Below are positions 1 through 27,670 of a DNA stretch of 54,660 bases, piece by piece. Location: positions 1 to 54,660 of the forward strand of contig CAISEW010000012.1 of assembly GCA_903884455.1 (NCBI GenBank), read 5' to 3'. The translations under genes and the position numbers were made by a program. The stretch is from an uncultured Chloroflexota bacterium (GTDB lineage Bacteria; Chloroflexota; Dehalococcoidia; GIF9; AB-539-J10). Numbering within the stretch: position 1 is the first letter of the stretch; each line of letters starts with the position of its first letter. Under the pieces are notes generated by a model that saw only the letters and a program-made list of their open reading frames with translations, had not been told where the DNA came from and made no database searches.

Positions 1-613
1 CCATTTTCATCCATTCAGCGAACTTATCCACATTGTAAACAATCTGTGTCTGGATGAAATCTGTCCCCGCTGCCACTTTCTTAGCAAGACGTGGTGCCCT
101 GAACTCAAAGGGGTCAGCAAAAGGATTTTCAGCAGCCCCGATGAAAAGATGTGGCTCAACCGCCATCGCCTCGCCACACTGGAACTTTTTTTCGTCCCTC
201 ATGTCTTTCACCATCTTAACCAGTTGAATAGAATCAAGGTCATAAACGCCCTTAGCAGTAGGATGATTACCAAATTTCTGGTGGTCTCCCGTGAGACACA
301 ACATATTATTTATGCCCAGTGCTGCAATACCTAACACATCCATTTGAAGGGCAATGCGATTGCGGTCGCGACAGGTCATCTGGACGATAGGGTCTAAACC
401 TTCCTCTTTGGCTATAAGACAAGCTGCCCAAGATGCCATGCGCACTACCGCAGTCTGACCATCGGTGACATTACAGGCATCCACATGACCTTTGAGTATC
501 TTCGCCTTCCTTCGGATCACCTCAGGGTCAGCACTCTGTGGTGGTCCCAATTCACCTGTGACAGCAAAGATTTTGGATTCTAACACCCGTTCCAAATTAC
601 TTTTCGTCTTCAT
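1..613 (-). CDS. metF: Methylenetetrahydrofolate reductase (MetF), 3' end outside window
   Basis: About 204 N-terminal residues are visible; the frame is open to the window edge, so the C-terminus is missing. The start is the ATG at 611-613. The N-terminus (VTGELGPPQSADPEVI), the VTDGQ..VRMAS stretch, the CRDRNR segment and LGINNMLCLTGDH match the TIM-barrel methylenetetrahydrofolate reductase family. The enzyme reduces 5,10-methylene-H4folate to 5-methyl-H4folate, the last methyl-branch step before transfer to the corrinoid protein. It follows metV by 32 bp and is the last visible gene of the Wood-Ljungdahl run, which fits the MetF-MetV pairing known from acetogens. Confidence 0.9.
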   Translation of the reverse strand, partial: MKTKSNLERVLESKIFAVTGELGPPQSADPEVIRRKAKILKGHVDACNVTDGQTAVVRMASWAACLIAKEEGLDPIVQMTCRDRNRIALQMDVLGIAALGINNMLCLTGDHQKFGNHPTAKGVYDLDSIQLVKMVKDMRDEKKFQCGEAMAVEPHLFIGAAENPFADPFEFRAPRLAKKVAAGTDFIQTQIVYNVDKFAEWMKM

Positions 614-645
614 TGCGCCTCCAATTGTTTAGCTCGTAGTCACAT

Positions 646-1296
646 CTAGGAAAGCCTCTTTACCGGTGGCCCTGATATAAGGCTCACACTCCAATTCTTC
701 GGTGTCACAAGCCTTTCCAATTTATCAAGTTGTCCCAGTTTGGCAAGACGATCGACAATCTGTTGCCAGACACAAGGTATATTTGGATCGACTTCGCATT
801 TACCACCTTGTGAGCCACCACAGGGACCATTGAGCAGATGCTTAGAACATCGGGCAATGGGACAGAGACCACCAGTAAACTCCAACACACAATCACCACA
901 CTCAAGGCAGCGCTCCGCTTCTTTCCACTCGGCATGAGCGCCACCTGAGGACAGAGTGTTGCAGCCAGGATGTACTACCTTATTCACTAATTCCGCTACA
1001 GTCTGCACTCCAGCCCCATCGGTCAGAACCAGGATGGAATCGGCAGCGGCAATTTCCTTTTTATAAGCTCTGAGTTTCAATTTGGTTAACACGCTATCAC
1101 ACAGCATATCAACAACTACTGAACCGGTAACAGTCTTACCTTTCTCCCGCAAAGTGCTTTTCATTTCTGCTACTTGTTTTTCTCCTCCACTACCCCAACC
1201 CTCAGCACAGCCCTTACAGCCAATCAGAAAGATATTATTATCTCCTTCCAGATAGCTTAGTATTTCTTCAAGTGGTTTTTGTTTTGAAATCAACAT
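646..1296 (-). CDS. metV: MetV-like methylenetetrahydrofolate reductase partner, zinc/FeS C-terminal domain
   Basis: This 216-residue protein matches the family found as the C-terminal domain or separate partner (MetV) of anaerobic MetF. It has an N-terminal CKGCAEGWGSGG segment and a cysteine-rich block, CLECGDCVLEFTGGLCPIAR, followed by C..HLLNGPCGG. The ATG at 1294-1296 has a GGAGAG ribosome binding site. In acetogens MetV binds metal or an iron-sulfur cluster and passes electrons to MetF. Its place directly before metF supports that role. The electron donor is not evident from this gene alone; the hydrogenase and NuoEF-like genes just upstream are candidates. Confidence 0.85.
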   Translation of the reverse strand: MLISKQKPLEEILSYLEGDNNIFLIGCKGCAEGWGSGGEKQVAEMKSTLREKGKTVTGSVVVDMLCDSVLTKLKLRAYKKEIAAADSILVLTDGAGVQTVAELVNKVVHPGCNTLSSGGAHAEWKEAERCLECGDCVLEFTGGLCPIARCSKHLLNGPCGGSQGGKCEVDPNIPCVWQQIVDRLAKLGQLDKLERLVTPKNWSVSLISGPPVKRLS

Positions 1297-1320
1297 TTCA
1301 TCTCTCCTTTAGGATCTGTA

Positions 1321-1758
1321 TTATTTAAGTTCTGATAAAATGGCATCTATTATCTGAGGCATTTTCTCTTGAAGCTCCGGCGATAATTCTAACCCCCAAT
1401 TAATCTCCCTCGGCTCGACCCCAATAATGACGGCCTCACCTATGTTATGCCCAAGCTGCATCAACTTTAAGCTATCCGCAAAGTCCATATCGTGAAGGGA
1501 TAGAAATGGCTTTTGCTCCAGAGTTATATCCTCAAGGTAAAAACGGTAAATTTGTCCCGGCGTTCCCCCACCCTTAACAGCATCCACTATGACCAATTTA
1601 TCAGCGTCCTCAAGAAGCTGCAGTACATCGGGGCATGTCCCCCCATCTATTATTTTTACGTCAGGGAGAGAGATACCTTCCATGGCATGTACCACATGAC
1701 AACCAACCCCTTCGTCTCTCAACAAGGCATTCCCTATTCCCACAACAAATTTTCCCAT
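1321..1758 (-). CDS. [NiFe] hydrogenase maturation protease (HycI/HyaD family)
   Basis: The 145-residue product has the family N-terminus GIGNALLRDEGVG, with the nickel-sensing acidic residue of the GNxLxxDxGxG motif, then IVDAVKGGGTPG and LSLHDMDFADSL. These proteases remove the C-terminal tail of the hydrogenase large subunit after nickel insertion. I chose the ATG at 1756-1758 because GGAGG lies about 9 bases upstream; a longer start would overlap the large-subunit gene. It begins 25 bp after the large-subunit stop, and that subunit carries a 15-residue tail beyond its terminal histidine, a fitting substrate. Confidence 0.9.
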   Translation of the reverse strand: MGKFVVGIGNALLRDEGVGCHVVHAMEGISLPDVKIIDGGTCPDVLQLLEDADKLVIVDAVKGGGTPGQIYRFYLEDITLEQKPFLSLHDMDFADSLKLMQLGHNIGEAVIIGVEPREINWGLELSPELQEKMPQIIDAILSELK

Positions 1759-1783
1759 TCCTGAACTTTCCTCCAAATTTTTA

Positions 1784-3343
1784 CTAACAAACCCTGAATT
1801 TTCCCAGGTCATGCCCTTTGGGACTGAGCAAATGTATAGAACAGGCGAGACAAGGGTCGAAGGACCTCACAATGCGCACTATCTCAAAGGGATTAGCCTC
1901 ATCCTTTATCATGGTTCCAGTGATAGCCTGCTCCAAAGGTCCAGGTTGGTTTTTATCATCCTTAGGAGAAATATTCCAGGTAGAAGGGGTAATGACCTGG
2001 TAATTAGCAATCTTGCCTTCTTTTATCTCTATCCAATGTCCCAGGGCACCCCTCGCTGCATCCACCAGTCCCATTCCAATAGACTCCTCGGGGAGTTTAT
2101 AGCTTATGTAAGCTGGCTCACCGGGCTTAAGTTGCAAAATCCAATTAACCATGGCATCGGCTATGAGTTTGGTCTCCAGAGCTCGAGCAAGGTTACGCCC
2201 CATGACAGAAAACATAGCTTTTGGTTTTAGATTTACTTGCGACAAAGTATAGTCAACCAAGCTCTTGACTCCGGGATTGCCGCCAACATAGTTGACCATC
2301 ATTCGCGCTAATGGTCCAACTTCGAAAACCATTCCACCATAACGAGGCGATTTTAGCCAGGAATAAGCACCCTTCTTTTCCCTATCAGGAATAACGTCTC
2401 CCTGAGATGGATGCCTACCACTGATTGAATCGGCGTACCAAGAATACTTTACCTCTTCAGTAATTTTAGCTGGATCGAATTCACTAAACTTGAGATCGGT
2501 AGAGGTGATGCCAGGCTTAAAAAATCTTTTCCTCTTGGTGAGGTCTGCTTCCTTTCCATCCAGCTCATACGAGCCATAAGCAAGTAAATTCCCACAGCCA
2601 CGACCAATCTCAAAATAATCTGAGTAAACCTGGGCTACTGCCAGTACATCAGGAAGGTAAACATTATCAACAAACTCCTGAAGCTCCTTCAATCTCCACA
2701 GGAAAGACGTTATATTATCAACCGTGGGTACGGAAGCAACTCCGCCAGGCATTATTCCCATATTGTGAGGCATCTTACCACCGAACAAAGCAAGCATCTC
2801 CTGGCCTTTACGGCGCATGTCGAATGCCGCGACATAGTGCGCTAGTGCCTGTTCATTAGCTTCATCGGGCAGGCGATAATCACCTTCGTAACGAGGTACA
2901 AACGGTCCCAGTTCCCCACGGGCAATAAAGCTCTTTATTGAATTTAAGGCAGGATTATTCCCCTTATACTTTGCTAATCTAGCCACATCTACATAATCAA
3001 GAGCCACTAAGTGATAGAAATGAAGGATGTGATCAGCGATATGAGCCGCCCCCAGGATTAGATTGCGGATAATTCTACCGTTGTCGGGTATTTTGTCAGC
3101 AATGCCGAAGGCGCTATCCAGGTTCAAAGTAGCGGCAGTAGAATGACTTGTCGGGCAAACTCCACAAACACGCTGAGCTATCCGCTGGGCATCACGGGGG
3201 TCCCTGCCCCTCATGATCAGCTCTAAGCCGCGGAACAGCATCCCTGAACTCTTAACCTCCTTTACCTTGCCACCATCAACCACCGCCTCTAGTTTAAGAT
3301 GTCCTTCAATACGAGTTACTGGATCGATTATAATCTTGCCCAT
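1784..3343 (-). CDS. [NiFe] hydrogenase large subunit
   Basis: This 519-residue catalytic subunit carries both nickel-binding motifs: RVCGVCPTSH near residues 58-67 (C60, C63) and DPCLACSIH near 496-504. Residues after H504 (15 residues ending RVC) form the tail normally removed by the maturation protease encoded next. The start is the ATG at 3341-3343 (MGKIIIDPVTRIEGHL) with GGAGG upstream, four bases past the small-subunit stop; the longer frame would run into that gene. The overall pattern resembles the uptake-type (group 1/2-like) lineage, but exact grouping needs a phylogeny. It probably oxidises H2 to supply the Wood-Ljungdahl pathway. Confidence 0.93.
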   Translation of the reverse strand: MGKIIIDPVTRIEGHLKLEAVVDGGKVKEVKSSGMLFRGLELIMRGRDPRDAQRIAQRVCGVCPTSHSTAATLNLDSAFGIADKIPDNGRIIRNLILGAAHIADHILHFYHLVALDYVDVARLAKYKGNNPALNSIKSFIARGELGPFVPRYEGDYRLPDEANEQALAHYVAAFDMRRKGQEMLALFGGKMPHNMGIMPGGVASVPTVDNITSFLWRLKELQEFVDNVYLPDVLAVAQVYSDYFEIGRGCGNLLAYGSYELDGKEADLTKRKRFFKPGITSTDLKFSEFDPAKITEEVKYSWYADSISGRHPSQGDVIPDREKKGAYSWLKSPRYGGMVFEVGPLARMMVNYVGGNPGVKSLVDYTLSQVNLKPKAMFSVMGRNLARALETKLIADAMVNWILQLKPGEPAYISYKLPEESIGMGLVDAARGALGHWIEIKEGKIANYQVITPSTWNISPKDDKNQPGPLEQAITGTMIKDEANPFEIVRIVRSFDPCLACSIHLLSPKGHDLGKFRVC

Positions 3344-3347
3344 TAAT

Positions 3348-4211
3348 TCAAACCTCCTCTGGCAGAGCAGCTTCGCTAACTTTCTCATAAAGCGGGGCTA
3401 TGTCAAAGAACCCGGGCTCGGTGCAGCCAATACAAGTGGCACCACAGCCTACACACCAATTAACTTTATTGTTCCACAACCTCACAGGACAATCGGCATG
3501 GGTTATAGGTCCTCTACATCCTAATTCATAATTGCACCCGGAATCGCCGAACTTCTTAGCAAACTTATTCTCATCATAGTAGGCTCGCCGTGGGCAGTTC
3601 TCGTGGATTGTTTGCCCATAGAAAGCCTTAGGACGCCTATGTTCATCCAAATCCTCCGGCTTCGGCAGACCAGAAAGCAGGATGCTGGCCACTGTGCCCA
3701 CAAACCAGTCAGGATGTGGTGCACAACCGGGGATGTTTACCAAGGGAGTATTGATGCCCTTGGCTTGAAGAACCTCACCGACGCTGCGACACTGAGTAGG
3801 GTTAGGATGGGCAGCGGGAATTCCCCCAAAAGCAGCACAGCTACCCAAAGCAATGACCGCCAAGGCATCTTTGGCCAATGTTTCCACCCAGGATTGCATA
3901 GTCATTGGCTTACCATCCTTTTCGCCAATCACCCCATAGATACCATCTTTAGCCGTGGGTATGGCCCCCTCCACAATCAGGATGTAACCTCCCTTTTTCT
4001 TCCGCGATGTATCCACCATAACTTCAATTACAGGCGCTCCCGCTCCCGCCATTACAGTGGGATGAAACCTTAGATTTATATGACTGCCCGGGAGTACTTC
4101 ATCAACTAAGAGGTTTTTGATAGAGGGATTTACCACATTGAGAAGAGAGACTGAGCATCCCGTACATCCAGCGGCTTGTAACCATATCGCCGGGTATTCT
4201 TTTGTATCCAT
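3348..4211 (-). CDS. [NiFe] hydrogenase small subunit, no Tat signal
   Basis: The 287-residue protein starts MDTKEYPAIWLQ and has CTGCS at residues 16-19, the proximal cluster motif. Further motifs include GSCAAFGGIP, NIPGCAPHPDW, HENCPRR and a C-terminal cysteine-rich block (WCVGCGATCIGCTEPGF) for medial and distal FeS clusters. There is no RRxFxK twin-arginine leader, so the enzyme should be cytoplasmic, unlike most uptake hydrogenases. The start at 4209-4211 has GAGGA upstream. The large subunit follows directly. No membrane cytochrome gene is nearby; NuoE/NuoF-like genes lie two genes upstream and could be its electron partners. Confidence 0.92.
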   Translation of the reverse strand: MDTKEYPAIWLQAAGCTGCSVSLLNVVNPSIKNLLVDEVLPGSHINLRFHPTVMAGAGAPVIEVMVDTSRKKKGGYILIVEGAIPTAKDGIYGVIGEKDGKPMTMQSWVETLAKDALAVIALGSCAAFGGIPAAHPNPTQCRSVGEVLQAKGINTPLVNIPGCAPHPDWFVGTVASILLSGLPKPEDLDEHRRPKAFYGQTIHENCPRRAYYDENKFAKKFGDSGCNYELGCRGPITHADCPVRLWNNKVNWCVGCGATCIGCTEPGFFDIAPLYEKVSEAALPEEV

Positions 4212-4273
4212 AAGTCCTCACCTGCCTTTCGACTTATTTTCGCAAATCCTCCACCGGGAGGATATTTTCTCAA

Positions 4274-5041
4274 TCATAAACGTAAGCCTTCAGCTATCTC
4301 TTTGACCTTTAATTGAAGAGAAGATTCCTGGGGGAGTTCAGTTACGGGCCTTCCCTTCATTTCCAAACCCGCCATATCGGGGTCTTCCGGAATCAGGGCA
4401 ATAACCTGAAGGCCAGATTCGTCAATTGCCTTTTTGATCTCCGTAGATAATTCTCCTCGGACACGATTAATTATAAGCCCGACTTTGCCCACATTCGATC
4501 TCAAATCTTCAATGAGCTTCTTCATTCGAGCTGCCGTAGTGACACCTTTTATGGTGGGGTCCGACATAATGAGCAAAACATCCACATCTCTGGTCGTTTG
4601 GCGGCTAATATGTTCCATGCCTGCCTCACAGTCCATGACAATATAATTATACTTATAATCTTTCACTAGTTTATCTAAGGAGGCACGCAAAAACTCATTA
4701 GAAGCACAATAGCATCCAGGCCCTTCCGGACGTCCCATGGACAAAAGGTCAAAGCCTTTGGACTCGACCAGGGATTCCACTATCTTGCTAAACAGATATT
4801 CCGGCTTGGCTATGGTGGGACTTAGACGACCCTTGGAGACATCTTCAGCCATCTTTTCCCGTATTCTACCCACAGTCTTACTATCATCCAGCAGTAGACC
4901 CAGCGCCTGGCTAAGATTGGTACTGGGATCAGCATCCACAGCCAGGACCAACCCCTTTTGAGAAAGGAGCTTGATAAGTAAGGCAGCAACAGTAGTCTTG
5001 CCTGTGCCTCCTTTTCCTGCGATAGCAATCGTTTTAGTCAT
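4274..5041 (-). CDS. cooC: CooC-type nickel-insertion ATPase for CODH
   Basis: The 255-residue MinD/ParA-class ATPase has the deviant P-loop GKGGTGKTT at residues 9-17, the VDADPSTNLSQALG switch region and a CYCASNEF segment. CooC proteins use ATP hydrolysis to load nickel into the C-cluster of carbon monoxide dehydrogenase. The start codon overlaps the stop of the preceding nuoF-like gene (ATGA at 5038-5041), indicating translational coupling. Its presence in the cdh/acs operon supports CODH maturation. The same family also includes AcsF, which serves acetyl-CoA synthase, so the exact client is inferred. Confidence 0.88.
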   Translation of the reverse strand: MTKTIAIAGKGGTGKTTVAALLIKLLSQKGLVLAVDADPSTNLSQALGLLLDDSKTVGRIREKMAEDVSKGRLSPTIAKPEYLFSKIVESLVESKGFDLLSMGRPEGPGCYCASNEFLRASLDKLVKDYKYNYIVMDCEAGMEHISRQTTRDVDVLLIMSDPTIKGVTTAARMKKLIEDLRSNVGKVGLIINRVRGELSTEIKKAIDESGLQVIALIPEDPDMAGLEMKGRPVTELPQESSLQLKVKEIAEGLRL

Positions 5042-6942
5042 TTCCCGGCTTTCCTTTCAGACAACTTTGAGGCAGGCAGCAAGCTAACAGGCGATAGCTT
5101 CACCACTGCATTATACTCGGGAGGGCAGACTTCCAGGCAAGTACCACACTTAGAACACTTTACCTGGTCTATGATTTTAACTTCCCCTTTATCCCCCTTA
5201 ATCGCTTTCGTGGGACAGGTCAAAATACAATGCTCACAGGCTCTATCACACTTGTCGGGAAGGATATAATACACAGTGAGTTCGGGACATACTCTGGCGG
5301 GGCAGCGCTTCTCCAGAATATGAGCTTCATATTCATCCCGGAAATAGCGCATGGTTGTGAGGACAGGATTAGGAGCTGTTTGCCCTAAACCACAAAGCGA
5401 CCCTGCTTTGACATCCTCAGCTAACGCCAGAAGAAGAGCAATATCATCTATTCCGCCTCGGCCAGCTGTGATGTCCTCTAAAATACGTAGCATTTGCAAA
5501 GTCCCCAAGCGACACATAGTGCATTTCCCACAGGACTCCTTGGTAGAGAAATCAATAAAGAACCTCGCAGCATCGACCATGCAGTTATTCTCATCCATAA
5601 CAATCATACCCCCTGAGCCCATCATTGAGCCAGCCTCCCGAAGGGAATCATAATCGATAGGGATGTTGAGCAAACTCTCGGGGAGGCACCCTCCCGAAGG
5701 CCCCCCTATCTGTACCGCTTTAAACTCCTTGTCCTTAGCAATTCCGCCACCGATGTCATAAACAAGCTTACTAAGCGTTGTTCCCATAGGCACCTCAGCC
5801 AATCCTACGTTGGCCACTTTACCAGCCAGAGTGAACATTGCTGTGCCCTTGCTTCCCTCAGTACCGATGGAGGCAAACCAATTCCCCCCTCTCTCAATTA
5901 TCAAAGGAACAAAAGCAAAGGTCTTCACATTGTTCAACAAGGTAGGTTTATTCCACAAGCCAGCTTCACTAAGGCGAGGAGGTCTTGGCCTGGGTTCACT
6001 TCTTCTGCCCTCCATAGCCGCAACTAATGCCGTTGCTTCTCCGGAAACGAAAGCACCAGCACCGGCTGCTATCTCAATGTGAAATCCAAAATCACCGCCT
6101 AGGATATTGTCTCCCAGAAAACCCAGTTTCCTTGCTTGCTTTAAGGCAATCTGGATACGCTCAATAGCTAAAGGATATTCGGCACGAACATAGATATAGC
6201 CTTGCTCGGCACCTATGGCATAGCCGGCAATAATCATACCCTCAATAACTTGATGCGGGTCGCTTTCCAAAACGACCCGGTCCATAAAAGCACCGGGGTC
6301 TCCTTCATCAGCATTACATATGACATACTTTGGTGTGCCTCCAGCCTTACGGCATAGCTCCCACTTCAGATGGGCAGGAAATCCAGCCCCCCCCCGCCCC
6401 CGCAGCCCGGATTTCTTCAGTTCCCCAATTATCTTCTCAGGCGATATCTTTAACGCTTTCTCCAAACCGCTATAGCCACCATTGGCGATGTAGTGATTTA
6501 TATTTTCAGGGTTGCTGTAACCACAGCAGCGCAGTATAAGACGAAGCTCATACTCAAACCTGGGAAGCTCTGGAATGTAGACTGCTTCCCCACCACCTCC
6601 TTCAAGGGTACCTAAGGCAAGTTCAAGGCATGGGTCATCGCCAGCTACATAACCTTCCACAAGGCGGGGTACAATCTCCGGCGTTACATTAGAATACACA
6701 ACTCGAAGAGAGCCAGGCTTGGATATAGTAACCAAGGGCTCAGCATAGCATAGCCCCATACAACCAACCTGTATAATCAGGACATCTAGACCTTGCCGTG
6801 TTAGCCCTTTTTTAAAGGCGTCAACTACATCCAGGGCGCCGGCTGCCCGTCCACAAGTAGCTGTGCCAATAAGAATATAGCTACCTCTCTGTAGAGCTTC
6901 CCATTCCGACTTCGCCTTATTACTAATTTCCTCGAAAGTCAT
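5038..6942 (-). CDS. NuoF/HydB-like NAD(P)H-FMN-FeS subunit with C-terminal ferredoxin domain
   Basis: This 634-residue flavoprotein has an N-terminal thioredoxin-like [2Fe-2S] domain (TATCGRAAG, VGCMGLCY). A NuoF core follows: GLRGRGGAGFPAHLKWE for FMN, CNADEGDPGAFMDR for NADH, then ESCGKCTMCRLGT for a [4Fe-4S] cluster. Two ferredoxin-type motifs end the protein (CEHCILTCP, CSKCGTCLEVCP). This architecture is typical of HydB/HndC-type subunits of soluble NAD(P)-linked or electron-bifurcating hydrogenases. I prefer the ATG at 6940-6942 over the TTG at 6957. It is preceded by a nuoE-like gene and followed by cooC and hydrogenase genes. No HydA/NuoG-like third subunit is present in the window. 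Confidence 0.9.
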   Translation of the reverse strand: MTFEEISNKAKSEWEALQRGSYILIGTATCGRAAGALDVVDAFKKGLTRQGLDVLIIQVGCMGLCYAEPLVTISKPGSLRVVYSNVTPEIVPRLVEGYVAGDDPCLELALGTLEGGGGEAVYIPELPRFEYELRLILRCCGYSNPENINHYIANGGYSGLEKALKISPEKIIGELKKSGLRGRGGAGFPAHLKWELCRKAGGTPKYVICNADEGDPGAFMDRVVLESDPHQVIEGMIIAGYAIGAEQGYIYVRAEYPLAIERIQIALKQARKLGFLGDNILGGDFGFHIEIAAGAGAFVSGEATALVAAMEGRRSEPRPRPPRLSEAGLWNKPTLLNNVKTFAFVPLIIERGGNWFASIGTEGSKGTAMFTLAGKVANVGLAEVPMGTTLSKLVYDIGGGIAKDKEFKAVQIGGPSGGCLPESLLNIPIDYDSLREAGSMMGSGGMIVMDENNCMVDAARFFIDFSTKESCGKCTMCRLGTLQMLRILEDITAGRGGIDDIALLLALAEDVKAGSLCGLGQTAPNPVLTTMRYFRDEYEAHILEKRCPARVCPELTVYYILPDKCDRACEHCILTCPTKAIKGDKGEVKIIDQVKCSKCGTCLEVCPPEYNAVVKLSPVSLLPASKLSERKAGK

Positions 6943-6969
6943 CTTAAACAATACCAAAATTCAAAGATA

Positions 6970-7020
6970 AAAATGCAAAATGACAAAGCAAACATCAAAA
7001 ATAAGATATTTTTGCATTTT
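6970..7020. repeat. AT-rich inverted repeat between nuoE-like and nuoF-like genes
   Basis: An 11-bp perfect inverted repeat, AAAATGCAAAA at 6970-6980 and its complement at 7010-7020, sits in the largest gap of the otherwise tight operon. The surrounding bases are almost pure A/T with micro-repeats of the AAAATGCAAA kind. It could form a stem with a 29-nt loop in the mRNA, affecting processing or relative subunit levels. It could equally be a simple-sequence relic. Confidence 0.5.
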
Positions 7021-7038
7021 GAATTGCAATCTTGATTT

Positions 7039-7554
7039 TTAACTTTTGCTTTTTGATTTCCCTTCTTTAAGCTCTCCCTGAGCTTCTTGCTTATACGGTA
7101 TTAAAGCCTCTTCCACCTTAAAAGGCGTCATCTTAGGATGAATTTTATCCTTTATTACTACGACGGGAGCCAGCATGCAACACCCAATACAAGCGACCCT
7201 CTCCAAGCTAAAGTTACCATCCTCGGCAGTCTCGCCTACTTTGATACTTAACTCACGCTCCAGGGCTTCCAAGATAAGCCTACCGCCCGCTAAGTGACAG
7301 GCGGTTCCCATACAAACCACGGTATGGTATTTTCCTAACGGAACAAAGCGAAACTGATTATAAAATGTAGCAACCCCCCAAACCTCAACCTCTGGCATCT
7401 CCAAGAAGTCAGCAATTTCCTGCAGCGCTTTCCTGGGGAGATATCCCAGCTTTGTCTGAACTTCTTGCAATAGTGGAATTAAATTTTTCTTTTCTTTTTT
7501 ATAATGACCTAAAATCTCAGCTACGGCTTGGCTAGCTTGTTTTTCTGCAATCAT
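7039..7554 (-). CDS. NuoE-like [2Fe-2S] thioredoxin-fold subunit
   Basis: The 171-residue protein shows the NuoE/HydC pattern: helical N-terminus (LIPLLQEVQTKLGYLP), FYNQFRFVPLGKY, then CMGTACHLAGG and CIGCCMLAP, which supply the four [2Fe-2S] ligands. It pairs with the NuoF-like subunit in NADH-linked complexes. I chose the ATG at 7552-7554, 13 bases after the acsC stop. A TTG at 7596 would give a longer protein overlapping acsC and has no better ribosome binding site. A spacer of about 96 bp with an AT-rich inverted repeat separates it from the nuoF-like gene. Confidence 0.88.
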   Translation of the reverse strand: MIAEKQASQAVAEILGHYKKEKKNLIPLLQEVQTKLGYLPRKALQEIADFLEMPEVEVWGVATFYNQFRFVPLGKYHTVVCMGTACHLAGGRLILEALERELSIKVGETAEDGNFSLERVACIGCCMLAPVVVIKDKIHPKMTPFKVEEALIPYKQEAQGELKEGKSKSKS

Positions 7555-7567
7555 TCTTTCAACAGAC

Positions 7568-8938
7568 TCAAGACAATCCCTTGAGTTGCTTAGCAAATCC
7601 AGGCAGGAAAGCCGCTATTCCGGTCGTCTCCCTAGGACCCACTATTACTTCCCATTCAAGATTCAAGGCATCCTCAAGCTCACCTTTGATCCTAGCTACT
7701 TTTCCCGGGATAATTAGCTTTCTATGTTTTACCTTTCCCCCGATGCCACATTTCTTAATAAATGCTCCTACAGAATCGCCGCTAAATTTACCTGCTGCCC
7801 AAGCAGTGAGGACACCAAGCCCTTCCGCGTCCTTAACACAAATGTAGGCGGGAACCTTGGTAGCCTCAACAGCCGATGAGACAAGGAAGTAGGTCAAAGC
7901 CCAGTTTGAAGTGACAAGAACCGGAGAAGATTCATCAGGTTCTCCCACTTCATAGTATTTCTGCTCTACTGCCATAGGAAAGCGAGGATCGGTATAGATG
8001 TTAAGCCGCTGAACTAGAAGAGGAAGCAGGGAGTATTGGTCGAAATCAGAAAAGACAATAATGCTAGCCCATTTATTTATAAATGCCGAGCCCACTAGCA
8101 TTTCCTTCAGCCCATCCTTGGCCATGAAGCAAGGAAAGGCAACAGTGGGATAGCCAAGAGGCCTGAAACCTTGCTTTAGCGCTGCCCTTCTGATAAAAGT
8201 TTGGTCTCTTATTGCCTCCAGCAAATTTTTAGAACCCGGGTCTAAAGATAGTTCCTCAATCCCAGCATCTTTTAACTTAGAAGTTAGAGGAATAAGTTCT
8301 TCGATACTTCCCCCACGGAGGCCAACAGGAGTAAGATTCGCTTTAATCTTTGGAATGGCCTTATCAATGTTCTCCTTCGTTATGGGGTAAAGAAGTGGAT
8401 GCCTATCCGCGCATATATCCCGTGCCGCAAATAAGGCGTCCATGTCTTCCGAGATTAAGACCATGCCCAGGTCTGTTGAATCATAAACTTTCTTCACCAG
8501 AGCCAGAAACTTGTTTTTGTCCCCTGATGCAAAATAAAGTGCCAAAAGATTTGCCTTTAGGTTTACCCCGACCCAAGGGAACTGCAATTCTTTTATCTTC
8601 TTTATTTTCTCCTCGATTTTGGCTTTGTCATCCTTGTCTGAGATAAGGAGGGCAATGCCTGGTGAATGGACAAATGTCTTCTCGTGCCGATATATCACTT
8701 CTTCGTTCCCGATTTTGACGGCGTTCTCCCCAGAGCCTATAGTAACAAGCTTTATCGGCGGTGCCAGAAGATCCAGCAGCTTAGCTTTCACTTCCTCAGA
8801 TAGGTAAGGGCATTTGTCCACAGTAGCTCCACCCGATGCCAGCTTCATGGCAAAGGCAAAACAAGTAGGGAAGCCACAGTCCTTACATGGTTTCTTTCCA
8901 GGAAGCATTTTTACAATCTCAGAACCTGCAATCGGCAT
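7568..8938 (-). CDS. acsC: Corrinoid/iron-sulfur protein large subunit (AcsC)
   Basis: The 456-residue protein has the N-terminal [4Fe-4S] motif CKDCGFPTCFAFAMKLASGG followed by DKCPYL, diagnostic of the CFeSP large subunit. A TIM-barrel domain (LSLDPGSKNLLEAIRDQT) and a C-terminal cobalamin-binding region follow. The CFeSP carries the methyl group on its cobamide from methyl-H4folate to acetyl-CoA synthase, and the FeS cluster re-reduces inactive Co(II). Start ATG at 8936-8938. It is followed 13 bp later by the nuoE-like gene and preceded by the ACS beta gene. Confidence 0.93.
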   Translation of the reverse strand: MPIAGSEIVKMLPGKKPCKDCGFPTCFAFAMKLASGGATVDKCPYLSEEVKAKLLDLLAPPIKLVTIGSGENAVKIGNEEVIYRHEKTFVHSPGIALLISDKDDKAKIEEKIKKIKELQFPWVGVNLKANLLALYFASGDKNKFLALVKKVYDSTDLGMVLISEDMDALFAARDICADRHPLLYPITKENIDKAIPKIKANLTPVGLRGGSIEELIPLTSKLKDAGIEELSLDPGSKNLLEAIRDQTFIRRAALKQGFRPLGYPTVAFPCFMAKDGLKEMLVGSAFINKWASIIVFSDFDQYSLLPLLVQRLNIYTDPRFPMAVEQKYYEVGEPDESSPVLVTSNWALTYFLVSSAVEATKVPAYICVKDAEGLGVLTAWAAGKFSGDSVGAFIKKCGIGGKVKHRKLIIPGKVARIKGELEDALNLEWEVIVGPRETTGIAAFLPGFAKQLKGLS

Positions 8939-8998
8939 AGTAAACCTCCTTCTTCAGCTATCAGTTTGCAGCTTTCAATTAGCTGACTACTTTTTTAT

Positions 8999-10246
8999 TT
9001 ATGTTGGAAGCTGTACTTCCCCTTTTATCCAAGGATGTCCTACTCTTTCCAAGAATGCTAGAAGCTCATCCACGTTCTTGACATCTTCTTCTGTGGCTAT
9101 TTTATCGTAGAGTCCTTTCTTTTCCAGGACATCTTTAAACCTTTCCTTTAACTCCTTGGGCATCCACACTATCCTGGCCAAGCCACCATCCGCCTGGATG
9201 AATTTGGGAGACCTTAGTTGCTGCAGTCCAGTTCCTAATCTTCCTTCTATTTGTTTACCTCCAGAAGTTTCACCAGCCATGTGGGAAAATGTTTCTCCTA
9301 CTACAGTTTCGCCCTTGAAATCTCTATGCACTACTCCAAAGGCATCCGCTTCAGGAATGTAATATACAATTGCTTCGAAACAGCCACAAGATGTATGGGG
9401 GTGCTCAAATGCACTATAGAGATAAACTCTATCGTAGGTACCCAGAGACTTGTTAGCTTCAATTGCATTCACCCCTGAATATTCACCTTTTACAGCATCT
9501 ATAAGCTCCCCCTTTGGTATGGCAAATATGGGCCCATCAGGGTCAATCTTGGCAGCAGCTCTGCCGTCAAACCAGTTTATCGCTCCACAATTAGCAATCC
9601 TATTTGGGGCTATGATAGAGATATGAGTGGGGGCAAAACTCTGACATAAGGTACAGCCATAAAAGGTGTCCACATCCTCATCATTCAAGGTCCTTGCCCG
9701 TTCATCCCTGGCGGCATAAACTTCCAAAGCGTGGGGAAGCAGCTCCTTTATCTTTTTTTCATCGGTGATAATAGTGACTTGGATTTTCTCGATGATTGAC
9801 ATCTCTGATGTATAAAGCAAGATATAAATTTCTCCCAATTCTCGTAAAGAAGTGAAACCCTTCTTATAACAGTCCTTACTTATCCTCAGCCATGTATCCT
9901 GCCTTTGATTCATGTGATACCAGCCCTCAATCATGTTAGTGAACATATGAATCCTTCTCTCGATAATTGCTTCGGCATCCTTGTCTAATTCTCCTCCGGC
10001 AACATCTACCAGAATGGCAATAGGATAGCTACCACCGCCTTTCTCTTCATCGTAAGGTTTCAAATCACCTATGTCCGGGCCGATAATTTCTACTTTCTCA
10101 TTCTCTATTTCATCAAGACTTTTAACTGTTGCTAATTCAAACTTATGTGCTGCTTTTGGTCCACCGAATTCCATATAGAGGTTTTCTTTTCTTATTACCT
10201 CGCCTTCATATTGAGGTCCTATATCTACGTGAAATTCACCTGCCAT
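8999..10246 (-). CDS. Short (archaeal-type) acetyl-CoA synthase subunit, AcsB/CdhC
   Basis: At 415 residues this is far shorter than the roughly 730-residue AcsB of classical acetogens; it lacks the N-terminal CODH-docking domain and matches the archaeal CdhC size. A-cluster ligands are visible as YGCTLCQSFAP, ANCGAINW and the later TSCGCFEAIVYYI pair. The enzyme joins CO, the methyl group and CoA at a nickel-iron A-cluster. Start ATG at 10244-10246 with AAGGAGAG upstream. It sits between cdhB and acsC. The size and the neighbouring epsilon subunit support a compact archaeal-style ACS in a bacterial operon. Confidence 0.92.
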   Translation of the reverse strand: MAGEFHVDIGPQYEGEVIRKENLYMEFGGPKAAHKFELATVKSLDEIENEKVEIIGPDIGDLKPYDEEKGGGSYPIAILVDVAGGELDKDAEAIIERRIHMFTNMIEGWYHMNQRQDTWLRISKDCYKKGFTSLRELGEIYILLYTSEMSIIEKIQVTIITDEKKIKELLPHALEVYAARDERARTLNDEDVDTFYGCTLCQSFAPTHISIIAPNRIANCGAINWFDGRAAAKIDPDGPIFAIPKGELIDAVKGEYSGVNAIEANKSLGTYDRVYLYSAFEHPHTSCGCFEAIVYYIPEADAFGVVHRDFKGETVVGETFSHMAGETSGGKQIEGRLGTGLQQLRSPKFIQADGGLARIVWMPKELKERFKDVLEKKGLYDKIATEEDVKNVDELLAFLERVGHPWIKGEVQLPT

Positions 10247-10252
10247 TTTTTC

Positions 10253-10804
10253 TTACTCTCCTTTCTTTAAATTATCTATTAAGCTTTCCAAGAATGCTTT
10301 CCATTGCTCATCTTTCCTGAAATTGGGGAGGGAATAATTAGCATTGGGAAAATAGAATTTGCACAGCGTCATAGTCTTTAGATGAGGGGCAAAATGCTTG
10401 AGCACAGAGAGGCCCTGCTCTCCGAGATCGCTCCTTATACCGAAGAAGAGCACCAAATCATGGTTCCCTTCTTTCCTGACCCCCCGCCAATTCGGATCCT
10501 TGAGAGCATTGATTATCTCCACAACATCATAGAAGCTATCCGGCTTTATCCCCAGCTCCGCCATCTTCGCCCTAACCTGAGCCGTGGCGCATGTAGGAAT
10601 ATTAGCAGCCTTAGCAATCTCCAGAGCATATTCTATGAGTAGCTTTCCATCAAGCGACCACTTCAGCAGAAGAGGGCCAAGTACAAGAAGCGGCCTTCTT
10701 GCTTTTTTTATCAAGTCAGCATATTCTTGGGCATCTTCTATCAGCCTTGCCGACTTTATCCCGGTTAAGACATTTACCCTATGATATGGTATTACCGCAC
10801 TCAT
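10253..10804 (-). CDS. cdhB: CODH/ACS epsilon subunit (CdhB-like)
   Basis: The 183-residue protein matches the CdhB/epsilon family in length and pattern: an N-terminal IKSARLIEDAQEYADLIKKA segment, RPLLVLGPLLL, a Rossmann-like core with NIPTCATA, and DLVLFFGIRSDLGEQGLSVLKHFAP. In methanogens this subunit binds the CODH alpha subunit and is thought to influence electron exchange with flavins. Classical bacterial CODH/ACS complexes lack it, so it is a useful marker of archaeal-type ancestry here. It lies 12 bp after cdhA and 6 bp before the ACS gene. Confidence 0.9.
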   Translation of the reverse strand: MSAVIPYHRVNVLTGIKSARLIEDAQEYADLIKKARRPLLVLGPLLLKWSLDGKLLIEYALEIAKAANIPTCATAQVRAKMAELGIKPDSFYDVVEIINALKDPNWRGVRKEGNHDLVLFFGIRSDLGEQGLSVLKHFAPHLKTMTLCKFYFPNANYSLPNFRKDEQWKAFLESLIDNLKKGE

Positions 10805-10816
10805 TTTATCCTCCTT

Positions 10817-13123
10817 TTAATGTATCACTGCATCCACAGAAACCTTGCTGGGATAAGTCCCGATAAGGGTGGGAAGTCCCACAGGCTCCTTGGGTTTCCA
10901 GCCGATTTCCTGTAGATATGCTCTCACCTCTTTCTTATAGACCAGAGGAATATCAGGATCCCTGCGCACGAAGAGGTGAATGTCCTCAGGAAGACCGCCT
11001 CCCATGTACTTCTTGTGCAGGGAGATGTAATGGTTCAATTTTATCGCTCTTCCCTGAGGGGTATCATTCTTCCTTATGCACAACTTGGGAATCATCACCA
11101 TAGCCTTCTCTTTAGTCTCACATACATAAGCCAGGTGCTCAGGAGAAGGCTCTCCAGTATCCACAATTTCCCTCTTCCGTGCATCCATGACTCTCCAATC
11201 GTCCTCTTCCTTTCTCGAGAGATACAACCTTCTATATTTGGAGGAATGAGGTCCGAGTATCACCGGGATGCCCAATCTGTTGCAGCCTGTAGCGATGGAA
11301 GCCGCCTTCTGTGAGTATGCCCCCCAAGCTACTCCCACAGCACCCACACGATTGAGGACATAATCAGCCATCACCTCGTAGTTTCCTCTCAAGGGAAGAG
11401 CAGCAAAGATATTGGCAATTTTTATTGCCGCTCCGGTGATATGACTATTGGCAACGCAGGAGCCAACGTTTACTACCCCTCCCATATCAAAAGCAGGGGG
11501 ATATTTTTCATATACGGTCTTGCCATCGGCATCCTTCCACATCCCGGCAACCATGGCACTGCATCCCGAAACAACCACGATATACTTTCTCTTGGCAAAT
11601 TCGTCCACCATCTCAGCAATGTCTCGAATGTCAGGAAAGTTTGAGCAGCCGACAATGGCAACTACTCCGGGGATTGTGCCCAGAGTTATAGGTGCCCCAA
11701 CAGTCCGTATCTCCGTATCCATAATCGGACCACGCCCGGCTCTCACCTTCCAACTTTCTTTACTCGCCGCTATCTGCATTATCTTGAAGATGGGAATCTT
11801 GCGAGGACATTCTGCCTCGCACTTTCCACAGCCAACACAGAGATTGAATTGCTCCCTTATCAGATCAAAATTGCCCTTGGCAACCTCAGCTATACCAGCG
11901 CCAATGTTGAAAAGGTTAGGGCATACCTGCTCACACATGCCACAGACATTACACTTCGTGGCCAGTTCCTTAGCCTCCCCCTCCGTCAGCCATTCCTTTC
12001 TCCTCTGAGGAGCAATTACTATCGCCACCTTAGCCGCTACCTCGGCTGCCTTTCGAGGGTCAAGGATGGCAAAATGCTTCTTGTCCTCTACCATCTGTCT
12101 GACTATGTCTTCAGTATCCATCTCAGAGGCATCTTCAAGTCCATACATAGCCTTGTCCAGAGTAGCTATGAGCGATGACCCAGCTTTGGATGCCTCTATT
12201 GGCATATCGGTCCTGATACACTGCTCATCGGTCATTATCACATCGGCAATGCCACTTCTGATAAAGAAAAGCTGCCGGGAAAAAGGACCAACAACTTTGG
12301 CCCTATCAGAGTACCTACTTGTTTCCAGAGCAGTGCAACAGACGCCACAGACTTCAACCTGGTCATAAAGATTATTCTCTCGGAGATAATCAATAACTAC
12401 GGTTGAAGTAGCTGGATTATGCCCCACAAACAGGATTACCGGTTTGCTTTTGTCCACTGCCGCCCACCCCAAATCTATCAGGGGTGTATCAGCAACTGAA
12501 GTGGGGTAATTAAATCCCACTATCTGAGCAATATCCGCCACTTCCATGCCTACATGGTCCAGCATTCCAGCATGAAGAGCTTTCGATTCGTAATCCAGGT
12601 AGCTACCCTCTTGTCCCATTGCAGTGGAATCCAGAAGATGGGTGATCTCCTTGAAGACATATTCTATGGCTATTACCAGGTCACCCAAAGTCTCAGGCTT
12701 CAAGCCCACGACTGTCCTTATGTGCGGTGCTTCGATATTGATTGACCCACCTAAATCTATCTTCTTATCCGGACCATACCTTTCAATCAAGAACTCCAGA
12801 ATGTGCCCACCATGAGCAGCATGAGCGGAGCATCCCATCAAGCAAGATAAGAGCACCCATCTTGCTTGTTGAGTAGCTATATCAATACCGCAGGCTCCTC
12901 TCCTTGTCTCGGTGAGGTCACATTTGCCATAGGTACAGAAACAACATAAATCACAGAATGGCGCATAAAAAGGCGCATATGTTTTCAATAACCTCATGTC
13001 CCAATTTCTGAGGTCGGGAATTTCCGGCATCGGCGTGGGACCGACTGGCTCCCAAGGAATCTCCGCTTTTATCTTCTTATGAATTTCTTCTAATTTCCGT
13101 GTCATTTCTTTTACTTCTGCCAT
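10817..13123 (-). CDS. cdhA: Archaeal-type CODH catalytic subunit (CdhA-like) with ferredoxin domain
   Basis: This 768-residue protein has the N-terminal cysteine-rich block CDLCCFCTYGKCDL...ACGID that forms B/D clusters. A SAHAAHGGH histidine region and VCGVCCTALE follow. An internal pair of ferredoxin motifs (CNVCGMCEQVCPN, CVGCGKCEAECP) is typical of archaeal CdhA and absent from bacterial CooS/AcsA. C-cluster segments (GCSAMVAGMW, NVGSCVANSH) are present. It interconverts CO2 and CO for acetyl-CoA synthesis. Start ATG at 13121-13123 with GAGGT upstream; acsD ends 4 bp before it. Together with cdhB and the short ACS it forms an archaeal-style CODH/ACS core. Confidence 0.93.
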   Translation of the reverse strand: MAEVKEMTRKLEEIHKKIKAEIPWEPVGPTPMPEIPDLRNWDMRLLKTYAPFYAPFCDLCCFCTYGKCDLTETRRGACGIDIATQQARWVLLSCLMGCSAHAAHGGHILEFLIERYGPDKKIDLGGSINIEAPHIRTVVGLKPETLGDLVIAIEYVFKEITHLLDSTAMGQEGSYLDYESKALHAGMLDHVGMEVADIAQIVGFNYPTSVADTPLIDLGWAAVDKSKPVILFVGHNPATSTVVIDYLRENNLYDQVEVCGVCCTALETSRYSDRAKVVGPFSRQLFFIRSGIADVIMTDEQCIRTDMPIEASKAGSSLIATLDKAMYGLEDASEMDTEDIVRQMVEDKKHFAILDPRKAAEVAAKVAIVIAPQRRKEWLTEGEAKELATKCNVCGMCEQVCPNLFNIGAGIAEVAKGNFDLIREQFNLCVGCGKCEAECPRKIPIFKIMQIAASKESWKVRAGRGPIMDTEIRTVGAPITLGTIPGVVAIVGCSNFPDIRDIAEMVDEFAKRKYIVVVSGCSAMVAGMWKDADGKTVYEKYPPAFDMGGVVNVGSCVANSHITGAAIKIANIFAALPLRGNYEVMADYVLNRVGAVGVAWGAYSQKAASIATGCNRLGIPVILGPHSSKYRRLYLSRKEEDDWRVMDARKREIVDTGEPSPEHLAYVCETKEKAMVMIPKLCIRKNDTPQGRAIKLNHYISLHKKYMGGGLPEDIHLFVRRDPDIPLVYKKEVRAYLQEIGWKPKEPVGLPTLIGTYPSKVSVDAVIH

Positions 13124-13126
13124 TTT

Positions 13127-14032
13127 TTACCTCGCTTCTATCGTTTCCTTTATTAATTTCAAGGTCTCGGGATGTCTCAATACAATAATATTTGCCCCAG
13201 CCAGTAAAAGTGATAGCGCTGTCATTCCTTCCCAAAGCAATCCTTGTTTCTTGTTTTCCTTAGCCTGTTTTGTCTTCCAGCACTCCCCACCAAGATTGGC
13301 AATAATCGGCATCATGGTCATACTGTCTTTGGTGATAACTCCAATCTGTTTTACCCGCTCAACCAAAGAGAAACTATATTCCATGCCATAGCCCAGCGCA
13401 GAAGACAAGGGGTCAATCACAATCCTATCTGAAGGAAAGAACTTACTGAGCTTGACATTCAACTCCTTAAGCAAATTGATATCCAGAGGGCTCTGGGCAA
13501 TGGCTGTATGCCCATGATCCAGAATTGCTTTGCCCACTGCTTCGTAATTTTCCTTAAGCACCGGGCCGATAAGGAGATTCATACCATCGCACACTTCAGC
13601 AACCTTGGAAAGAACTTCAACATCCTTCTTTTCGTCTCCCGAGCCATAGATAATCAAAGGCACATTTATAGCCTCGGCTACTTCTTTGGCCAGTGCCGCT
13701 GCTTTGTCAGCAGGAGCATTCTTGACTGCCGGGTCGGTACTCACAAGGAAAAGTGAAACGGCATCCACAGCAAAATCCTGGCATTTCTTAGCCCAGCTAA
13801 CCGAGTTGGAAATTACATCCCGCAAGGGCTCAACTGCATGCTCTGGCCAATCCTCAGGCTTCATATCAAGAACTTCCAGAGCAAACTTCGCCGGATTGGG
13901 ATTTGAGCCCTGGTCAAAAAAATGAAGGGGAAGAATATTCTCTCCCCCAATCTTCAAGCTCTTCTTTCCCTTCCCAATAGTTACCTCTCTCACTACCCCA
14001 CTATACGCTTCAACTGGTGCTTTATATTCCAT
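13127..14032 (-). CDS. acsD: Corrinoid/iron-sulfur protein small subunit (AcsD)
   Basis: The 301-residue TIM-barrel protein shows the CFeSP small-subunit pattern: an N-terminal beta segment ending GGENILPLHFFD, then ALEVLDMKPEDWPE, DAVSLFLVSTDP, and SPLDINLLKELN. The C-terminus is LLAGANIIVLRHPETLKLI. It forms the heterodimer with AcsC and helps bind the cobamide. Start ATG at 14030-14032 has GGAGG 8 bases upstream. It is the second gene of the operon, after acsE and before cdhA. Confidence 0.92.
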   Translation of the reverse strand: MEYKAPVEAYSGVVREVTIGKGKKSLKIGGENILPLHFFDQGSNPNPAKFALEVLDMKPEDWPEHAVEPLRDVISNSVSWAKKCQDFAVDAVSLFLVSTDPAVKNAPADKAAALAKEVAEAINVPLIIYGSGDEKKDVEVLSKVAEVCDGMNLLIGPVLKENYEAVGKAILDHGHTAIAQSPLDINLLKELNVKLSKFFPSDRIVIDPLSSALGYGMEYSFSLVERVKQIGVITKDSMTMMPIIANLGGECWKTKQAKENKKQGLLWEGMTALSLLLAGANIIVLRHPETLKLIKETIEAR

Positions 14033-14044
14033 TCCTTATCCTCC

Positions 14045-14932
14045 TTAACTTTCCAGCCAGGCATTGGAGTACAAGGTTTCTCCCTTAAGAACCCTGGCTG
14101 TCTTAACATACTCAACTTGCTTTTGAGATAGGGCGGAGAGGTCTATGTCCTCCCCATCCATAGCCTTATAAATGAGCTCGACAATTTTCGGCATCTCTCC
14201 CTTGATCAAGCTCATAAGCTCTTTATCCAAAGGGTCAGCGATGGCAGAATAAAGTCCATTCCTCCCTAGCATCACCAGATACACACGGTTAAGAAGCGGC
14301 CTGAGTTGGTCCGGCACCCCGTTAGATACATTGGAAAGCCCTACTGTGGATTTAACCCCGGGCAGAACATCCTCAAGTATCTTGATAAATTCCAAATTTG
14401 CTACGGCGAACCTCTGTCCCTCGCCAGCGGTACTCACGGGAAGAAGTATAGGGTCAACCCAGATGTCTTCGTTGGGAATCCCCAATTCATTGGCATATGT
14501 CACCGTGTCCATAATACTCTCTATCTTGGAATCAACATCGGGAGGCATTCCCTTATCCGTCATTACCGAAATCACCACATCGCAGTTATATTTTTTGGCC
14601 AAGGGAAGCATTTGCTCTTTGGAGCCAGTCTTCCCCGAAGCAGAGTTAAGCAAAGGTCTCTTCTGGCAAGCTTTTAGACCTGCCTCCATCGCTACAGGAT
14701 TCATAGTATCTATAGATAAAGGCAAATCGGTAACTTCCTGAACTGTGCTGACTAACCATTGCATGGTCTCTTCGGTGTCCTTTTTCATGGGGCCAACATT
14801 CAAGTCAATGTAATCGGCTCCCGCTTCAGTTTGAGCTTTAGCTAAATCCTGAATTACTTTGGCATCTCTCTCCCTTATCGCTGTGGAAACTGCTTTAGCT
14901 ATGACATGTATGTTCTCGCCAATAATGACCAT
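14045..14932 (-). CDS. acsE: Methyl-H4folate:corrinoid protein methyltransferase (AcsE)
   Basis: The 295-residue pterin-binding TIM-barrel protein begins MVIIGENIHVIAKAV. It has AQTEAGADYIDLNVGPMKKD, PLSIDTMNPVAMEAGL, LNSASGK and GLSNVSNGVP, all family motifs around the methyl-H4folate pocket. It moves the methyl group from methyl-H4folate to the CFeSP. The start is the ATG at 14930-14932 with GGAGGT 7 bases upstream; the frame extends further upstream but that part lacks family similarity and would run into the promoter. It is the first gene of the operon. Confidence 0.94.
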   Translation of the reverse strand: MVIIGENIHVIAKAVSTAIRERDAKVIQDLAKAQTEAGADYIDLNVGPMKKDTEETMQWLVSTVQEVTDLPLSIDTMNPVAMEAGLKACQKRPLLNSASGKTGSKEQMLPLAKKYNCDVVISVMTDKGMPPDVDSKIESIMDTVTYANELGIPNEDIWVDPILLPVSTAGEGQRFAVANLEFIKILEDVLPGVKSTVGLSNVSNGVPDQLRPLLNRVYLVMLGRNGLYSAIADPLDKELMSLIKGEMPKIVELIYKAMDGEDIDLSALSQKQVEYVKTARVLKGETLYSNAWLES

Positions 14933-27664: not shown

Positions 27665-27670
27665 CAGCAA

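Follow-up and report, generated by a model that had tools for sequence, protein, structure and literature searches.

A Chloroflexota operon linking a hybrid CODH/ACS to a BfuBC module and a putative H2-driven methylene-THF reductase

The window (the whole stretch of 54,660 nucleotides analysed) begins with the first base of contig C12 and carries on its minus strand, from 14932 to 1, a single tight operon which, judged from its sequence, is likely to encode most of an H2-driven Wood-Ljungdahl pathway: a hybrid CODH/ACS, a BfuBC module and a soluble HydSL-MetVF. Within it, a five-gene hydrogenase unit probably feeds electrons from H2 straight to the methylene-THF reductase step. We lean towards reading HydSL-MetVF as a direct, soluble H2:methylene-THF oxidoreductase, i.e., a fifth type of methylene-THF reductase (MTHFR), which would have arisen once, spread through Dehalococcoidia, Desulfobacterota and Bacillota, and been combined in the window lineage with a hybrid CODH/ACS that has a bifurcating module of its own. 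The hybrid six-subunit CODH/ACS itself is already known and is not new; the HydSL-MetVF unit appears to be new, as judged against the open-access literature. The genes, separated by intergenic gaps of -41 to 81 bp, are listed in operon order with the evidence for each.

14045..14932, minus: AcsE, methyl-THF:CFeSP methyltransferase (Pterin_bind; NF005719)
13127..14032, minus: AcsD, CFeSP small subunit, 301 aa, a bacterial length (NF003376, tree)
10817..13123, minus: CdhA, alpha subunit of an archaeal-type (clade A) Ni-CODH, carrying an internal ferredoxin domain with two clusters (TIGR00314, ligands, tree, solved chains)
10253..10804, minus: CdhB, epsilon subunit (TIGR00315, tree)
8999..10246, minus: CdhC, a short acetyl-CoA synthase that lacks the N-terminal domain of AcsB (TIGR00316, tree, A-cluster cysteines)
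7568..8938, minus: AcsC, CFeSP large subunit (NF003195 at 543 bits, tree)
7039..7596, minus: NuoE-like protein, BfuC/HydC (2Fe-2S_thioredx; adjoins BfuB in nearly all relatives)
5038..6957, minus: NuoF-like protein, BfuB/HydB, 639 aa, bearing a 2Fe-2S domain at the N-terminus and a 2x4Fe-4S domain at the C-terminus (solved chain, ligands)
4274..5041, minus: CooC, Ni-insertion ATPase of CODH/ACS (CbiA; a homologue adjoins CdhC in archaea)
3348..4211, minus: HydS, small subunit of the [NiFe]-hydrogenase, lacking a Tat signal (TIGR00391 at 242 bits)
1784..3388, minus: HydL, [NiFe]-hydrogenase large subunit (NF033181 at 704 bits, cut-off 600; motifs)
1321..1812, minus: HycI-type hydrogenase maturation protease (TIGR00072 at 124 bits)
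646..1296, minus: MetV, Fe-S/Zn subunit of methylene-THF reductase (PF12225 at 114 bits)
1..613, minus: MetF, 5' part, truncated by the contig end (the frame stays open from ATG 613 up to the contig edge)

The hybrid CODH/ACS and the integrity of the operon

The mixture of an archaeal-type core with bacterial parts, which an earlier note on this DNA had described, is confirmed, and the three core ORFs (CdhA, CdhB and CdhC) lie on the minus strand where that note had placed them. CdhA (768 aa) scored 1077 bits against TIGR00314 (cut-off 781); its C-cluster ligands agree with those of archaeal CdhA, its nearest solved chains are CdhA-type alpha subunits, and the internal ferredoxin pair was located as two 4Fe-4S motifs (C391/394/397/401 and C429/432/435/439) in the archaeal pattern. 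The epsilon subunit CdhB (183 aa) was likewise recovered in the operon, at 132 bits for TIGR00315 (cut-off 101), and has relatives only in archaea and hybrid operons. The acetyl-CoA synthase, held to be archaeal in type and merely 415 residues long, proved to be both: CdhC gave 564 bits with TIGR00316 (cut-off 356) and fell below the bacterial alpha/beta models (513-529 bits vs cut-offs of 800-809), with the C-terminal part only aligned. It lacks the bacterial N-terminal domain and also the C-terminal tail of about 55 residues of archaeal CdhC (profile covered to 401 of 464), and its five A-cluster cysteines are all conserved in 77 of 77 sequences. The trees proposed for the three proteins gave archaeal placements, a fully supported branch setting CdhA and CdhC with the archaeal sequences, apart from bacterial AcsA/AcsB. 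A split of CdhA in loci L038-L042 was considered and rejected; those ORFs are full length, though divergent.

AcsC, AcsD and AcsE are of bacterial type, in agreement with the earlier note. The AcsC and AcsD trees place both on the bacterial side, with archaea separated at full support in each, and AcsE had solely bacterial relatives in the sequence set compared. AcsD passed NF003376 (339 bits, cut-off 280), and AcsE, at 244 bits, was slightly below the NF005719 cut-off of 259. The probable true start of AcsE is ATG 14932 (295 aa) and not GTG 15058; its relatives are 294-295 aa long, and the best promoter-like site nearby (15009-14981) lies within the longer ORF. CooC, MetV and MetF were found beside the core, as had been described.

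The complete gene order was found again in three independent metagenome-assembled genomes (L002, L003 and L014), which bears out the proposal of a single ordered operon joining CODH/ACS to hydrogenase and NuoEF-like genes. The synteny comparison in related bins also bears on the chance that the operon is an assembly chimera joining archaeal and bacterial contigs, for which nothing was found beyond the mixed origin of the genes. GC (0.44-0.48) and skew are even over 1-14 kb of the window, and the junctions are identical in assemblies from different studies (L002, L003, L014 and L091); because the same junctions occur in separate assemblies, a chimera is excluded, short of one artefact common to them all, its probability being very small.

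That archaeal-like CODH/ACS occurs in some Chloroflexota is already published: a passage of PMC6305446 names the hybrid for Chloroflexi RBG_13_51_36, Ca. Desulforudis audaxviator and Unc8, and a passage of PMC9751293 gives further cases, with the same six subunits and the same archaeal/bacterial split as in the window. Locus L003 is RBG_13_51_36 itself, and its CdhC is 93% identical to that of the window; the BfuBC and HydSL-MetVF genes linked to the CODH/ACS are not taken up in the passages concerned. As in the clade A (Cdh-type) Ni-CODH contexts of PMC13056359, the window CODH is linked to ACS and CooC. Hydrogenase association was almost exclusive to CODH clades E and F in that survey, and the window's clade A operon is an exception to this pattern.

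The NuoEF-like pair and the hydrogenase

The earlier note had treated hydrogenase and NuoEF-like genes as one arrangement; their linkage held up, and a single joint module did not. As judged from gene neighbourhoods, they form two distinct modules, each distributed in its own way, the NuoEF-like pair going with CODH/ACS and the hydrogenase with MetV-MetF. The closest solved chain to the NuoF-like protein is 7t2r_B, subunit B of a bifurcating NiFe-hydrogenase, and the B1-B5 cluster ligands (by the criteria of the Bfu source paper), including the B2 His/Cys set, are complete in the window and its relatives. Thr in place of Cys476 was considered as a missing B2 ligand and rejected, Thr being usual at this position in two thirds of BfuB (PMC9304861). 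BfuA is absent from the window operon; a homologue lies in the same genome right after FTHFS, at the FTHFS-FolD site (C46:3806-4489). In relatives BfuA stands upstream of AcsE with BfuBC downstream of AcsC, or all three are contiguous. The same bracketing of CODH genes by BfuA and BfuBC was the argument for the predicted Codh-Bfu of PMC9304861, a family which includes the Acetomicrobium mobile NiFe-HydABCSL and with which the window shares the BfuBC core and all ligands; Codh-Bfu was there limited to Firmicutes, whereas in the present loci it occurs together with the archaeal-type CODH/ACS of Chloroflexota and Desulfobacterota.

The hydrogenase resembles group-1/NiFeSe proteins in the comparison with solved structures, the best solved homologue of HydS being 1cc1_S, the small subunit of a NiFeSe hydrogenase; HydL carries Cys, not Sec, in its motif DPCLACSIH. 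Periplasmic group-1/NiFeSe uptake hydrogenases have a Tat signal on the small subunit, whereas none was found on the window HydS, where a 17-residue lead precedes the first Cys motif (in Tat-type relatives this lead is about 50-87 residues long and contains an RR motif). A single branch (support 92) sets leaderless HydS apart; several over-short HydL rows were left out of the HydL comparison.

HydSL, BfuBC and the distant BfuA could together form an electron-bifurcating NiFe-hydrogenase (2 H2 -> NADH + reduced ferredoxin), with MetVF merely co-transcribed. BfuBC does stand between CODH/ACS and HydSL in the window operon, the BfuB ligands are all intact, a BfuA homologue is present in the genome, and the A. 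mobile enzyme is a precedent. The A. mobile HydSL, however, is described as group 3 and encoded with HydA, whereas the window HydS is group-1/NiFeSe-like in an operon without HydA; most HydSL-MetVF loci lack an adjoining BfuBC (e.g., L098-L106, L108 and L110), and BfuBC stays with CODH/ACS in most relatives without HydSL. Because the two modules differ in distribution, this was put aside as the main reading, and we regard it as rather unlikely.

The HydSL-MetVF unit among relatives

The survey covered 57 related loci in three phyla. MetV follows the leaderless hydrogenase in 36 of the 36 loci with enough downstream DNA, which belong to Chloroflexota (12 families), Desulfobacterota and Bacillota, and follows none of 15 Tat-type HydS homologues, a contrast for which the Fisher value overstates the evidence, loci within one genus not being independent. 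The leaderless units usually have neither CODH/ACS nor BfuBC nearby; in several genomes HydSL opens the unit, with upstream neighbours on the opposite strand, and in L107 the unit lies beside a bacterial AcsA/AcsB operon. In MetV, 11 of 12 cysteines are invariant among 29 hydrogenase-linked copies; a comparison with solved structures gave no match. The window MetF is 84-97% identical to that of close relatives, and the gene after MetF in L002, L003 and L014 encodes a DUF3786 protein (the window contig ends inside MetF).

In close relatives, either the hydrogenase-MetV cassette or an NADH-linked RnfC2-MetV cassette (RnfC2 in L004, L005, L011 and L079) stands ahead of a conserved MetF (84-92% identical). 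MetV identity is about 44-50% where RnfC2 replaces the hydrogenase vs 89-97% otherwise, and MetF shows no such shift. A position of RnfC2-linked MetV as a deep outgroup was rejected; in the MetV tree it is a long branch nested within hydrogenase-linked MetV, and for this reason the cassette swap is claimed without direction. L094 and L095 have a second MetV-like gene downstream of the hydrogenase-linked MetV, and therefore the two cassettes may coexist.

These observations bear on whether HydSL is instead a free-standing cytoplasmic hydrogenase passing electrons through ferredoxin to MetVF and CODH, its gene order reflecting shared regulation only. Reduced ferredoxin can serve MetVF enzymes as electron donor in vitro (PMC8760232), and the conserved order of HydSL-MetVF can come from co-regulation alone. 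That order is nevertheless maintained over three phyla, also where no other pathway gene adjoins, and it is the MetV version, not MetF, that changes with RnfC2 replacement; we consider a free-standing hydrogenase improbable.

Proposed function and its meaning

In the favoured reading, a direct H2:methylene-THF oxidoreductase, archaeal-type CdhA2B2 would reduce CO2 to CO, bacterial AcsCDE would bring the methyl group and the short CdhC would form acetyl-CoA. BfuBC, with the BfuA encoded elsewhere beside FTHFS-FolD, is a candidate NAD/ferredoxin bifurcating module tied to the CODH/ACS genes. HydSL, MetV and MetF are linked in the genome and may form a soluble complex, in which H2 would be oxidised at the NiFe site and electrons would pass through three HydS clusters to the MetV Fe-S clusters, the MetF flavin and methylene-THF.

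Type II MTHFR is MetVF alone, whereas the window, like all the leaderless loci above, has HydSL ahead of MetV. Type III, MetVF-RnfC2 of Acetobacterium woodii (PMC8760232), shares with the window MetV, MetF and an extra electron-input module beside MetV; that input is RnfC2 (NADH), and the window has the NiFe-hydrogenase HydSL-HycI (H2) in its place. Type III with a MetV-domain-bearing RnfC2 is present in a close relative (L004). Type IV is HdrCBA-MvhD-MetVF, and the window operon is without hdrCBA-mvhD; Mvh/Hdr-like genes occur on contig C19. The Sporomusa ovata chain (PMC9430772) carries out the same overall reaction, methylene-THF reduction with H2, using a separate hydrogenase that is periplasmic and linked to cytochrome b, together with membrane-located HdrCBA-MvhD and probably quinone, whereas the window hydrogenase is leaderless and lies inside the metVF gene unit. 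The reaction is exergonic by 41 kJ/mol (PMC9430772), and a soluble H2-linked enzyme would conserve no energy at this step.

The reductant of methylene-THF, and energy saving at that step, is an open problem of acetogen bioenergetics (PMC8760232, PMC9430772). If the reading is true, a hydrogenase wired to MetVF would solve it in a large, still uncultured group of subsurface bacteria, with H2 and NADH as electron inputs that swap ahead of one MetF among close relatives. The methyl branch is then predicted to be able to use H2 with neither NADH nor ferredoxin involved, and HydSL-MetVF would serve as a metagenome marker for H2-dependent carbon fixation.

Operon layout and origin of the CODH/ACS core

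Every gene of the operon lies on the same strand of the window, with intergenic gaps of -41 to 81 bp; the source genome (1.56 Mb) is 99.5% complete.

14932..1, minus strand, in operon order: AcsE, AcsD, CdhA, CdhB, CdhC, AcsC, NuoE, NuoF, CooC, HydS, HydL, HycI, MetV, MetF

The contig end truncates MetF, since the window starts at base 1 of contig C12. The 14-gene order was found whole in a contig of Chloroflexi RBG_13_51_36 (locus L003), and was identical in the related loci L002, L003 and L014, and in L091 over the stretch it covers; synteny in related bins, to which the earlier note had pointed, rules out a chimeric assembly.

The earlier note had read CdhA, CdhB and the short ACS as an archaeal-type core within a bacterial-type operon (AcsC, AcsD, AcsE), and it was right in both observation and reading. 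Scores of CdhA, CdhB and CdhC exceeded the curated-model cut-offs, and the short ACS fell below the cut-off in bacterial full-length models. In maximum-likelihood trees taking in archaea, bacterial Acs operons, Dehalococcoidia and Desulfobacterota (quick searches with few bacterial outgroup rows, in which deep branching within each side is unreliable), CdhA and CdhC grouped with archaea, the branches dividing them from bacterial AcsA and AcsB being fully supported; AcsD and AcsC grouped with bacteria, the archaea splitting off with full support. Among the compared sequences CdhB was confined to archaea and hybrid operons, and AcsE had bacterial relatives only. The C-cluster and ferredoxin-domain cysteines of CdhA match archaeal CdhA. 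Only 7 of 400 Chloroflexota genomes passed the CdhA cut-off, hence the trait, though real, is not common. The hybrid core has been reported before: PMC6305446 describes a six-subunit complex of exactly this type, names RBG_13_51_36 as carrier and proposes a single transfer of cdhABC out of Euryarchaeota, and PMC9751293 reports further hybrids.

Variation among related operons

Across window 10253-12800 (cdhA-cdhB), DNA identity was ~91-96% to L004/L014 and ~75% to L002/L003, and the flanking genes were similar to all compared loci (L002, L003, L004, L010, L014). From these identities we infer that the CODH alpha-epsilon pair was swapped as one block, giving a homologous-recombination mosaic among these loci. 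Eight Dehalococcoidia loci (L038-L042, L046, L049, L050) carry a CdhA homologue without any C-cluster ligand (the ferredoxin insert is absent in 5/8) and lack CdhB, retaining CdhC, AcsCDE and BfuBC, an arrangement suggestive of an acetyl-CoA synthase whose CODH subunit is dead. In the trees, hybrid operons from Syntrophaceae/Deltaproteobacteria MAGs (L019, L021, L023, L024) and a Clostridia MAG (L020) nest within the Dehalococcoidia clade; the former may be real transfers, and L020, nearly identical to Dehalococcoidia L025, is probably misbinned. At L033:8734-9429 a gene for a DUF166 protein separates CdhA from CdhB. DUF3786 proteins follow MetF or BfuA in Wood-Ljungdahl clusters (L004:19607-20254; L002:20589-21236; L107:12993-13703; L043:15652-16344). 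Elsewhere in the window (23861-27670), a 1269-aa protein kinase-AAA-TPR gene of ~60% GC amid a 46% GC region is possibly a recent import.

The NuoEF module

NuoF, a HydB/BfuB-type protein of 639 residues, has its nearest solved structure in the HydB chain of the bifurcating A. mobile NiFe-hydrogenase. By the BfuB ligand criteria of PMC9304861, its B1 to B5 cluster ligands are complete, the diagnostic B2 His and Cys among them, and nearly all of the 40 sequences aligned keep the full set. The same genome encodes a BfuA homologue of 227 residues on contig C46, directly after FTHFS and FolD. In relatives, BfuA is immediately upstream of AcsE and BfuBC immediately downstream of AcsC; four Desulfobacterota MAGs have the order AcsC-BfuC-BfuB-BfuA. 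PMC9304861 argued from the same bracketing of CODH genes for a Codh-Bfu enzyme, at the time known in Firmicutes alone, and on this ground NuoEF belongs to the CODH/ACS gene set as a putative bifurcating module. Second NuoEF-BfuA sets occur inside the CODH/ACS operons of L006 (between CdhA and CdhB) and L036 (between AcsD and CdhA). On contig C19 of the window's genome (L089, L090) there is a second BfuB, close to a complex-I 49-kDa-like subunit, and an Mvh-type hydrogenase adjoining FlpD and Hdr-like genes, so the genome has several additional ways of reducing ferredoxin with H2.

The hydrogenase-MetVF unit

HydS resembles NiFeSe small subunits and has no Tat signal, only 17 residues preceding its first cysteine motif; the hydrogenase and MetV motifs are intact, HydL having Cys rather than Sec in DPCxxCxxH. 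HydS was sought in 393 Dehalococcoidia, 400 Chloroflexota, 345 Desulfobacterota-side and 348 Bacillota-side genomes, and surroundings were taken for selected matches. Leaderless HydS (without the Tat signal) was present in 39 of 57 loci, and wherever the DNA reached far enough (36 loci) MetV followed on the same strand, the remaining three running out at the end of a contig or locus; after MetV, MetF was identified in at least 31. MetV accompanied Tat-type HydS in none of 18 loci (15 with enough DNA). The leaderless proteins form one side of a single tree branch (support 92) and come from at least 12 Dehalococcoidia families and two other phyla, including a 3.56-Mb single contig (L143). Most of these units have neither CODH/ACS nor BfuBC alongside; that of L107 follows a bacterial-type AcsD-AcsA-AcsB-AcsC-AcsE cluster. 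In L098 and L104 a cNMP-binding histidine kinase gene separates MetV and MetF and a short response-regulator-like gene follows MetF, as if the unit were under its own regulation. The Tat-type HydL ORFs of L138, L139, L140 and L147 end right after SFDP, which is what a selenocysteine TGA in DPUxxC would produce; leaderless-type HydL carries Cys.

In L004, L005, L011 and L079, HydS-HydL-HycI-MetV is replaced by a protein that combines a MetV domain, an RnfC domain and two 4Fe-4S clusters, then a different MetV. Since RnfC2 of type III MTHFR has an N-terminal MetV domain (PMC8760232), we identify this protein, from its domains, as RnfC2; the hydrogenase thus alternates with an NADH module. The MetF that follows is 84-91% identical to that of the window, the MetV only 44-50%: donor module and MetV vary as a pair, and the reductase MetF is retained.

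On the best reading, HydSL would pass electrons from H2 along an Fe-S chain to MetV and then MetF; the physical complex, the direct transfer and the direction of the reaction are deduced from the genes. H2-dependent methylene-THF reduction is exergonic, at -41 kJ/mol under standard conditions (PMC9430772), so the reverse, H2 from methyl-THF, is unlikely. Unlike this unit, the four MTHFR types described all lack a hydrogenase subunit, and S. ovata achieves the same net reaction via a membrane chain. A search of the open-access literature found no description of a hydrogenase-MetVF unit, for which the genomic case is strong. What gives the finding its value is the pair of electron modules, chiefly the hydrogenase-MetVF unit.
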